From contig PUNE01000013.1 in NCBI GenBank assembly GCA_003551665.1, forward strand, positions 62,001 through 126,000: a DNA stretch of 64,000 bases, in the 5' to 3' direction. The notes beneath the pieces were generated by a model. The model did no database searches. It was not told the origin of the DNA and saw nothing but the letters and a program-made list of their open reading frames with translations. The DNA is from Halobacteroidaceae bacterium (GTDB lineage Bacteria; Bacillota; Halanaerobiia; B1SED10-174). Position 1 is the first letter of the stretch; each line of letters begins with the position of its first letter. This document shows positions 26,455 to 40,060 of this stretch, piece after piece. Made by a program: the position numbers and the translations under genes.

Positions 26455-26625
26455 ACTCTGTCCCTTTAACCTGAGAGATTATTATTACCCCTTCGGTGAC
26501 CAGTATCGCTGGTCTCTCCAGAGTCCTGTCCAGAAACGGTCCGTATACCTGAGCGTTTCTCCAAAATTGGCCCAACTTCGGATTACGCCTTCGGTGTCCT
26601 TTTAGGAGCTCTCCCGTTCCCTTCA
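26455..26625 (-). ncRNA. tandem (two-aptamer) glycine riboswitch upstream of gcvT
   Basis: Minus strand GGGAACGGGAGAGCTCC...GGACACCGAAGGCGTAA...ACGCTCAGGTATACGGACCG...CTGGAGAGACC...GGTCACCGAAGGGGTAA...CTCTCAGGTTAAAGGGACAGAG: two copies of the characteristic cores. Confidence 0.95.
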
Positions 26626-26652
26626 TCCAACTTTATAGATCTTTCCGAAAAA

Positions 26653-37726: not shown

Positions 37727-39010
37727 CTATCCTGAAAGGCGTGCAGTGCGATTTCGGACTTCCCACTTAACTTTTTCCACATCGATAGTGTAAAACTCCC
37801 CTTTGTCATATAGAATTGTCCCATCAACAATTGTAGTCTGGACGTCATTTCCCCGACAACTATAAACCACGTGGGCAAGTGGATCAAAAACCGGGGTAAG
37901 ATGTACCTTATCCAGGTTGAGAAGAATTATATCAGCTTTTTTTCCTTTTTGCAAACTCCCAATTTCTGATCCCAGGCCAAGAATATCAGCTCCCATAGCC
38001 GTTCCCATTTTAACAACCATACCTGCGGGGAGATTCTGGGAATTTTTGCTCGCAACCTTCTGCAATAAAGCCCCTGCTTTCATTTCCGTGAACATATCCA
38101 GGGAATTATTGCTACCAGGGCCATCTGTCCCAAAACCAACCCTGACCCCTTTTTCCAGTAACCGGGCAATGGGAGCTATACCACTGGCCAGTTTCATGTT
38201 GCTCTGGGGATTGTAGGCAACCCCAACGTCTTTCTCCTTTAAAATGTCAAGGTCTTCATCATTAAGGTGAACACAATGAGCCGCCAGAGTTTTATGCTCG
38301 AAAACCCCAAGATCAAGAGCCCATTTAATCGGAGATTTTTCAAATTCTCTTGCCAGTTGATCTATTTCATCCCTGGTTTCCGCAAGATGGATATGAATGG
38401 GCAGATCGTTCTTTTCAGCCTGTTCAAGAATCTTTTTCATAAAGGAAGGTGGACATGTATAGGGTGCGTGGGGGGCCAGCATGGTTTTAATTCGTCCATC
38501 TGCCTGTCCTTGCCAGTTCCGGGCAAAATCCACGGTCTTTTTTAGCTGAGCTTCTGCTCCTGGTTGCAAGCCAATTAAGCCCCAGGTTAAAACTGCCCTG
38601 ATCCCGGATTCTTCCACAGCTTTGCCTGCTCTGTCCATGGCAAAATACATGTCGGTAAAGGTAGTGGTTCCCGAGGCCAGCATTTCAGAAATAGCCAGGA
38701 GCGTTCCCCAGTAAATGTCTTCAGAGTTTAATCTGCCTTCCAATGGCCAGATATAATCTTCAAGCCAGGTCATTAAAGGCTTGTCATCTGCAAAACCCCG
38801 GGTGTATACCATGCCTGCATGGGTATGGCAATTGATAAGTCCCGGGAGGGCAAGACAGTTAACTCCGTCTATTTCTTTTTCCGCGGAAAAAGATTGGGTT
38901 TCATTATTATTTCCACAGGCACTAATCCGGCCATTTTCAATACAGATATCCCCTTTTTTAATTCCTTTTTCTCCATGGAGAAAATCCACATTCTTGATTT
39001 TTAAACGCAT
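37727..39010 (-). CDS. mtaD: amidohydrolase, 5-methylthioadenosine/S-adenosylhomocysteine deaminase family
   Basis: LPGLINCHTHAGMVYTRGFADDKPLMTWLEDYIWPLE; HIHLAETRDE; GTDGPGSNNSLDMF. Confidence 0.9.
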   Translation of the reverse strand: MRLKIKNVDFLHGEKGIKKGDICIENGRISACGNNNETQSFSAEKEIDGVNCLALPGLINCHTHAGMVYTRGFADDKPLMTWLEDYIWPLEGRLNSEDIYWGTLLAISEMLASGTTTFTDMYFAMDRAGKAVEESGIRAVLTWGLIGLQPGAEAQLKKTVDFARNWQGQADGRIKTMLAPHAPYTCPPSFMKKILEQAEKNDLPIHIHLAETRDEIDQLAREFEKSPIKWALDLGVFEHKTLAAHCVHLNDEDLDILKEKDVGVAYNPQSNMKLASGIAPIARLLEKGVRVGFGTDGPGSNNSLDMFTEMKAGALLQKVASKNSQNLPAGMVVKMGTAMGADILGLGSEIGSLQKGKKADIILLNLDKVHLTPVFDPLAHVVYSCRGNDVQTTIVDGTILYDKGEFYTIDVEKVKWEVRNRTARLSG

Positions 39011-39117: not shown

Positions 39118-39147
39118 TTGACCCCCTCCCCAATTTTATGTTATAAT
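39118..39147 (+). promoter_or_regulatory. sigma-A-type promoter of the orphan riboswitch RNA
   Basis: TTGACC (39118-39123), 18-nt spacer, TATAAT (39142-39147). Confidence 0.75.
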
Positions 39148-39162
39148 TTTATTTAGGAATTA

Positions 39163-39251
39163 CACTCTGAAAATGGCAAACTCGTCGAAAGGCGGGGACG
39201 CAAAGCCACGAATCTAAGGCTAAAGCTAAGATGGTCGGGCTGCCGGAGAAT
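39163..39251 (+). ncRNA. cyclic di-GMP-I (GEMM-I) riboswitch aptamer
   Basis: TGGCAAAC-TCGTC-GAAA-GGCGGG-GACGCAAAGCCAC-GAATCTAAGGCTAAAGCTAAGATGGTCGGGCTGCCGG matches the conserved GEMM core. Confidence 0.92.
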
Positions 39252-39260
39252 CAGGATTTG

Positions 39261-39293
39261 GCCTTTTTCTCGCGGCTGAGAAATTGGCTTTTT
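39261..39293 (+). terminator. possible expression-platform terminator of the c-di-GMP riboswitch
   Basis: GCCTTTTTCTC-gcggct-GAGAAATTGGC-TTTTTG hairpin with T-tract (two-pair internal mismatch). Confidence 0.6.
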
Positions 39294-39335
39294 GTTTTGT
39301 TATTTTTAATTCCTCCTTATCAATCCTCCTTTCTA

Positions 39336-39364
39336 AACCCCTTGCAAAAGGGGTTCTTTTTTTT
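39336..39364 (+). terminator. second intrinsic terminator downstream of the riboswitch
   Basis: AACCCCTT-gca-AAAGGGGTT followed by CTTTTTTTT. Confidence 0.75.
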
Positions 39365-39384: not shown

Positions 39385-39447
39385 GGAACCTCCCCGGTTC
39401 GAAAAAGGATCCCCTCCTAATCCCTTTCCAAAAAACCTGGAGGTTCC
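39385..39447. repeat. 63-nt imperfect inverted repeat in intergenic region
   Basis: GGAACCTCC (39385-39393)/GGAGGTTCC (39439-39447) with nested GGTT/AACC and AAAGGAT/ATCCCTTT pairings. Confidence 0.55.
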
Positions 39448-39516
39448 AAACTGAAAAAACAAGCTTTATTAATATATTCTATTTTTTCCAAATTTTTCCT
39501 GCAAAAAATAAAAAAA

Positions 39517-39550
39517 AAGCCTCCCAGCCTTAAGAAGGCTGGCGAAGCTT
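39517..39550 (-). terminator. intrinsic terminator overlapping the pgsA stop
   Basis: Minus strand AAGCTTCGCCAGCCTTCTTAAGGCTGGGAGGCTTTTTTTTT. Confidence 0.8.
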
Positions 39551-40060
39551 TTTCAGGGTTATCCGGAAATAATCGAGAGCTGATAAAATAGCGAGGACAG
39601 CTCCTATCCAGATCAGGGGTCTACCCAGGGTGGGAACATCAAAAATATTAATAATCGCAACGGAATAGAGAAAAAACGCAGTGGATTTGCCGAAGTTTGT
39701 AGGGTGAATCATGTCCTTCCCTGAAAGAAAAAGCACCGCAGAAGCAATGAACAAAACAGCATCCCTTGCTATTATTATTATTCCCGCTGCAAGGGGAATA
39801 ACCCCTTTAAATAAAAGAGTAATGAAAATGGCAATAAGGGTTAACTTGTCAGCAACGGGGTCGAGAATTCGGCCCAGATCGGTTTCAATATTAAATTTCC
39901 TGGCAATAATACCGTCGAAAAGGTCAGTCAGAGCTGAGATTACAAATAAAATACCTGCAATCAACTTGTAATTTCCCACTTCAGAAACCAGGACATAAAC
40001 TATCACGGGTATTAATAATAGCCGAAAACTCGTAAGCAGGTTAGCAAGATTCATCCCCAC
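39530..40060 (-). CDS. pgsA: CDP-diacylglycerol--glycerol-3-phosphate 3-phosphatidyltransferase
   Basis: NLANLLTSFRLLLIPVIVY; DLFDGIIARKFNIETDLGRILDPVADKL (CDP-alcohol transferase motif). Confidence 0.93.
   Translation of the reverse strand: MGMNLANLLTSFRLLLIPVIVYVLVSEVGNYKLIAGILFVISALTDLFDGIIARKFNIETDLGRILDPVADKLTLIAIFITLLFKGVIPLAAGIIIIARDAVLFIASAVLFLSGKDMIHPTNFGKSTAFFLYSVAIINIFDVPTLGRPLIWIGAVLAILSALDYFRITLKKLRQPS

Follow-up and report, generated by a model that had tools for sequence, protein, structure and literature searches.

The window analysed here, a stretch of 64,000 nucleotides, is part of a 2.87 Mb draft genome. In it, two minus-strand genes, one for an MtaD-like amidohydrolase (37727-39010) and one for a PgsA-like transferase (39530-40060), flank a riboswitch unit on the plus strand. 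The unit begins with a promoter of the sigma-70/A type, TTGACC-N18-TATAAT with an extended TG (39118-39147), which agrees with the consensus at 11 of 12 positions; the pattern TTGAC-N19-TATAAT occurs only once in the window and in 0 of 100 shuffles. Transcription would be expected to begin near 39154.

The promoter is followed by a c-di-GMP-I (GEMM-I) aptamer at 39165-39247. The Rfam covariance-model search that the first-pass annotation had called for gave 83 bits for RF01051 (gathering threshold 35, E 7.7e-15), all 87 model positions (1-87) being covered, and the identity of the aptamer as c-di-GMP-I is certain. Its helix P1 is formed by CUCU (39165-39168) and GGAG (39245-39248). The GG of the GGCAAA core, which contacts the ligand in c-di-GMP-I riboswitches, is retained in the RF01051 alignment, and both P1 and this GG are invariant in the six genomes compared below. 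A predicted antiterminator 5' arm, CCGGAGAA (39243-39250), overlaps the 3' strand of P1 and has as its partner UUCUC-G-CGG at 39267-39275, within terminator 1 (39261-39293). The latter comprises a hairpin, GCC-UU-UUUCUC / GAGAAA-UU-GGC (39261-39288), and a T-run (39289-39293; UUUUU in the RNA); it was missed by a simple terminator scan and is seen in the sequence and by folding. Farther on lie a linker, AAUUCCUCCUUAUCAAUCCUCCUUUCUAA (39308-39336), with two CCUCC anti-Shine-Dalgarno motifs (39312-39316 and 39325-39329), and terminator 2 (39336-39364), AACCCCUU-GCAA-AAGGGGUU-C-U8, in which a hairpin at 39336-39355 is followed by C and eight T.

The unit thus has its own promoter and a final intrinsic terminator, as a riboswitch-gated small RNA does. 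The same-strand downstream gene of a cis-acting leader is absent, both neighbours lying on the minus strand, likewise in the relatives. The promoter, the strong aptamer with its apparently retained ligand-contacting G, the adjacent terminator-like hairpin, the second terminator and the minus-strand orientation of both flanking genes had all been described in the first-pass annotation and were confirmed. Its interpretation as a whole turned out to be partly supported, and to it are added here the 28-nt linker between the terminators, the finding that relatives keep the unit, and another conserved RNA just downstream, encoded on the minus strand.

Conservation of the unit in two genera

The comparison covered six genomes of the family from two genera of Halanaerobiia, namely five of the same genus (the one at hand included) and one of a second genus (G001). 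The five relatives came to light when the GTDB species genomes were scanned for exact DNA matches, and are Halobacteroidaceae/Halanaerobiales or 'Bacillota' MAGs; their isolate codes presumably point to soda-lake sediments. The element is known from only these six genomes, the named ones being metagenome-assembled. Protein search revealed an MtaD-like orthologue in all six, and in each a GEMM-I aptamer is divergent from mtaD, with RF01051 scores of 70-84 bits. At the orthologous site of three relatives (L007, L008 and L009), the best Rfam score is that of the variant family c-di-GMP-I-GGC (RF03167), not of RF01051.

In the six-genome alignment, TTGAC and TATAAT at equal spacing, P1 (CUCU/GGAG), the stem of terminator 1, the linker and terminator 2 are all kept. 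Terminator 2 shows compensatory changes in the second genus, where the tract of terminator 1 is U-poorer. The 28-nt linker AAUUCCUCCUUAUCAAUCCUCCUUUCUA is near-invariant across the five same-genus genomes, with U for the first A in one of them (G002). Between the genome at hand and the second genus, 26 of its 28 positions are identical, against 45% of the third codon positions of mtaD (P about 1e-7). In the second-genus genome, another gene follows terminator 2, namely a convergent ORF of 518 aa that matches no family; since the unit is kept there despite the different downstream gene, its orphan state is independent of the present neighbourhood. It is near certain that we are dealing with a conserved autonomous unit. 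The suggestion of a decayed regulatory locus, raised in the first-pass annotation, is rejected on this sequence comparison, because promoter, aptamer, both terminators and linker persist in all six genomes and hence across two genera.

The predicted switch and the linker behind it

Pairing of CCGGAGAA with 39267-39275 is predicted to tie up the 3' strand of P1 together with the 5' arm of terminator 1, so that the P1 and antiterminator pairings, which share GGAG, would be mutually exclusive. In the folding model of the nascent unliganded RNA, when transcription has proceeded no further than the 5' arm of terminator 1, the antiterminator ensemble is better than the P1-closed one by 5.6-13.5 kcal/mol in all six genomes; the antiterminator is weaker in one of them (G003). 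Once terminator 1 is complete, the modelled difference between aptamer plus terminator and antiterminator is 1.2-3.1 kcal/mol, and therefore ligand binding could decide. Such a gap is within reach of a nanomolar ligand, a KD of about 1 nM being quoted in PMC3627812. The folding energies and the competition for shared bases together therefore predict that c-di-GMP terminates transcription and that its absence permits read-through. With c-di-GMP bound, P1 would form, the antiterminator would be blocked and terminator 1 would fold, leaving only an RNA of about 140 nt. At low c-di-GMP, GGAGAA would pair with UUCUC of the terminator-1 stem and the polymerase would reach terminator 2, yielding an RNA of about 210 nt. 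The opposite sign, in which c-di-GMP promotes read-through and the long RNA is made at high c-di-GMP, appears unlikely: both signs occur among GEMM-I switches and the folding energies are model values, but closure of P1 frees the 5' arm of terminator 1 in all six genomes, and antiterminator and P1 draw on the same GGAG.

The 3' part of the long RNA would display the two CCUCC segments, which we expect to be single-stranded in vivo. When the whole RNA is folded without constraints, the accessibility of the linker is 0.98 for the sequence at hand and only 0.43-0.57 in the other genomes, which counts against the model. The second CCUCC motif continues with UUUCUAA(G) and thus reads CCUCCUUUCUAA(G), like the 3' end of the 16S rRNA of the class; the 16S 3' tails in the class contain GGATCACCTCCTTTCTAAG at 46 of the 46 sites found, and the family's own 16S gene was sought in the MAGs and not found. 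With these segments, the RNA of about 210 nt would pair with strong Shine-Dalgarno sequences, lowering the translation of selected or many mRNAs at low c-di-GMP. Potential partners are abundant, because AGGAGG precedes 20 of the 55 ORFs of the window. No supported target emerged when mRNAs were searched for long, conserved stretches complementary to the second motif. The leader of a PAP2-phosphatase gene matched in two genera, but its orthologues lose the complementarity. Pairing of the RNA 5' end with the linker (AGGAAUU/AAUUCCU) turned out not to be conserved across the six-genome alignment. The proposed anti-Shine-Dalgarno mechanism is likely, and we consider that the free-standing unit probably encodes a riboswitch-gated, trans-acting small RNA with an anti-Shine-Dalgarno payload. 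The first-pass idea that c-di-GMP controls a trans-acting small RNA is thereby supported and made specific, with a conserved twin payload behind the switch.

Another role of the linker would lie in protein or rRNA metabolism, where a mimic of the 16S 3' tail could titrate a factor that recognises the AUCACCUCC end (e.g., Era) or a processing nuclease. The identity of CCUCCUUUCUAAG in the second motif with the 16S 3' sequence, over 13 nt in four genomes and over 12 in the one at hand, includes UUUCUAA beyond CCUCC and speaks for such a mimic. Nevertheless, AU intervenes between CCUCC and the AUCA of the 16S end, the sister genus reads CCUCCUUACUAC, and the first motif lacks UUUCUAA; this alternative, too, is unlikely to be correct. 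It is quite improbable that terminator 1 is no switch point at all and that a single constitutive RNA buffers c-di-GMP through its aptamer, the linker merely stabilising it. The near-consensus promoter would suit a buffer of this kind, and merRNA, to which it would be similar, is a published ORF-less orphan c-di-GMP-I RNA with a proposed reservoir function (PMC3627812). However, a ligand sponge, which had also been put forward in the first-pass annotation, requires neither an invariant segment past terminator 1 nor a conserved overlap of P1, antiterminator and terminator, and it leaves the conserved segment unexplained.

A plus-strand gene or ORF behind the aptamer, against which the first-pass annotation had wished to check its view by synteny, was sought in the six genomes: none is conserved, and no plus-strand ORF with a ribosome site is common to all of them at the locus. 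The linker is conserved at every position and not codon-wise, which disfavours the tiny-peptide leader also proposed there. A cis-regulatory leader that has lost its gene, or one of an unrecognised peptide, is highly improbable: such a leader does exist in this genome, where a paralogous platform stands before a small secreted-peptide ORF, but the present unit is strongly conserved as an orphan in two genera that differ in the downstream neighbour and have no ORF in common there.

Among the other GEMM-I aptamers of the family, some stand in front of flgB, of a GGDEF-type coding region, or of small ORFs for secreted proteins or lipoproteins, these names being given by inspection of translations. 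Because these aptamers precede coding regions, ordinary c-di-GMP switches are in use in the family. A platform of the same design lies in front of a small secreted-peptide ORF in the genome at hand and in relatives. About 0.7 kb separates a pair of c-di-GMP-I aptamers at one locus (L001/L003, G000:C88:5226-6008), which is present in G004 and G005 as well, one preceding a small secreted-peptide ORF and the other an apparent GGDEF-type coding region; the stretch after the first aptamer (around CTCCACAGACCCTTTATAGGGAATTAC) is conserved. At another (L053/L047, G004:C18:4258-4561), tandem c-di-GMP-I aptamers about 135 nt apart apparently precede a lipoprotein-like ORF. The window itself also holds a tandem glycine riboswitch on the minus strand (26455-26626; 65.5 and 48.2 bits). 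No twin CCUCC linker was seen at the GEMM-I loci sampled in other families of the class, which mostly precede same-strand ORFs, and neither the rest of the class nor other GTDB species yielded a copy of the linker next to an aptamer. Linker-like matches with three mismatches in other families and two matches in Pacearchaeota have no GEMM core adjoining.

A hairpin element on the opposite strand

In the five same-genus genomes, the interval from terminator 2 to pgsA holds element 2, a long hairpin on the minus strand (39385-39447) that is convergent with the riboswitch RNA and is probably a second small RNA. As many as 11 of its 25 pairs are changed on both sides, which exceeds 500 of 500 shuffles and all slid controls, and the loop AGGAGGG (39412-39418) is invariant. 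G-U pairs occupy 17 cells vs. 0 for A-C; this agrees with minus-strand transcription, though the minus strand was also the one used to predict the fold. A covariance model found one strong copy per same-genus genome, adjoining the riboswitch RNA; a weak match in the second genus falls inside the 518-aa ORF and was rejected. Upstream of the hairpin, GCAGGAAAA-N11-ATAGAATAT (39474-39502, minus strand) matches exactly RNAGGAWWW-N11-RNNGAATWW, which we take to be the sigma-H consensus and on which the promoter class of element 2 rests. Only 0.12 exact matches to this pattern are expected in 64 kb, and it is seen in the same-genus genomes, with one -10 mismatch in G002. SigH is encoded in all six family genomes.

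The AGGAGG of the loop could form a duplex with one or the other CCUCC motif or with 16S rRNA, or bind CsrA, and element 2 is possibly a partner of the riboswitch RNA. We put forward only tentatively, as a proposal with a rather small chance of being right, that the two form one device, in which the housekeeping polymerase makes a c-di-GMP-gated anti-Shine-Dalgarno RNA and a sigma-H-driven AGGAGGG hairpin sequesters it, or in which that hairpin mimics a Shine-Dalgarno site. If true, this two-RNA device would couple translation to the c-di-GMP level and to the onset of stationary phase or sporulation.

Known systems and significance

The Vc2 riboswitch of Vibrio cholerae is said, by the title of a 2019 report of Pursley et al., to act on an upstream putative small RNA via RNA stability. 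There, a c-di-GMP-I riboswitch is likewise tied to a small RNA, which going by that title lies upstream. The nearest published logic is that of Rli55 of Listeria and EutX of Enterococcus, in which a B12 riboswitch causes premature termination with the ligand and a longer trans-acting RNA is made without it (PMC7602753). The unit described here resembles them as a riboswitch-controlled small RNA with a proposed early stop in the presence of the ligand and a long trans-acting RNA in its absence; it differs in having c-di-GMP as the ligand and a twin anti-Shine-Dalgarno payload instead of B12 and an ANTAR site for EutV. The merRNA of Bdellovibrio bacteriovorus, also an orphan c-di-GMP-I RNA without a conserved ORF, is 445 nt long, not found outside its lineage, and proposed as a c-di-GMP reservoir (PMC3627812), a role marked by massive expression; no gated anti-Shine-Dalgarno segment is described for it. 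The c-di-GMP-I riboswitch Bc1 of Bacillus thuringiensis has a similar layout, its aptamer being followed by a pair of intrinsic terminators separated by 28 bp (PMC11218506), but is the leader of a protein gene, mcpE.

Repeated, ultraconserved anti-Shine-Dalgarno motifs CCUCCUCCC in unpaired regions are a feature of the alpha-r14 or cuckoo RNAs such as NfeR1 (PMC10746234). Those RNAs consist of three hairpins, each with CCUCCUCCC, and have no riboswitch, whereas here the motifs lie in an inter-terminator linker; the present RNA falls outside that family in sequence and structure, and GEMM-I is the only Rfam family scoring above its gathering threshold at the locus. The Betaproteobacteria toxic small RNA family (RF02278) gives a very weak match at 39310-39362, far below the cut-off (18.8 bits vs. 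a gathering threshold of 50). Its members carry an anti-Shine-Dalgarno segment before a terminator and, in contrast to the present RNA, have no aptamer. In the open-access literature, no description was found of this RNA or of an anti-Shine-Dalgarno small RNA gated by a c-di-GMP riboswitch. What would be new is the combination of c-di-GMP as the ligand with an anti-Shine-Dalgarno payload; the logic of a riboswitch-gated, trans-acting small RNA is known.

Only a few trans-acting RNAs are gated by a riboswitch, and B12 is the ligand of those covered by the open-access literature consulted. If the proposed mechanism is true, orphan c-di-GMP riboswitches would gain a testable role besides ligand storage, and the lifestyle signal c-di-GMP would reach translation in these bacteria by RNA alone, via a copy of the sequence with which the ribosome recognises mRNA.
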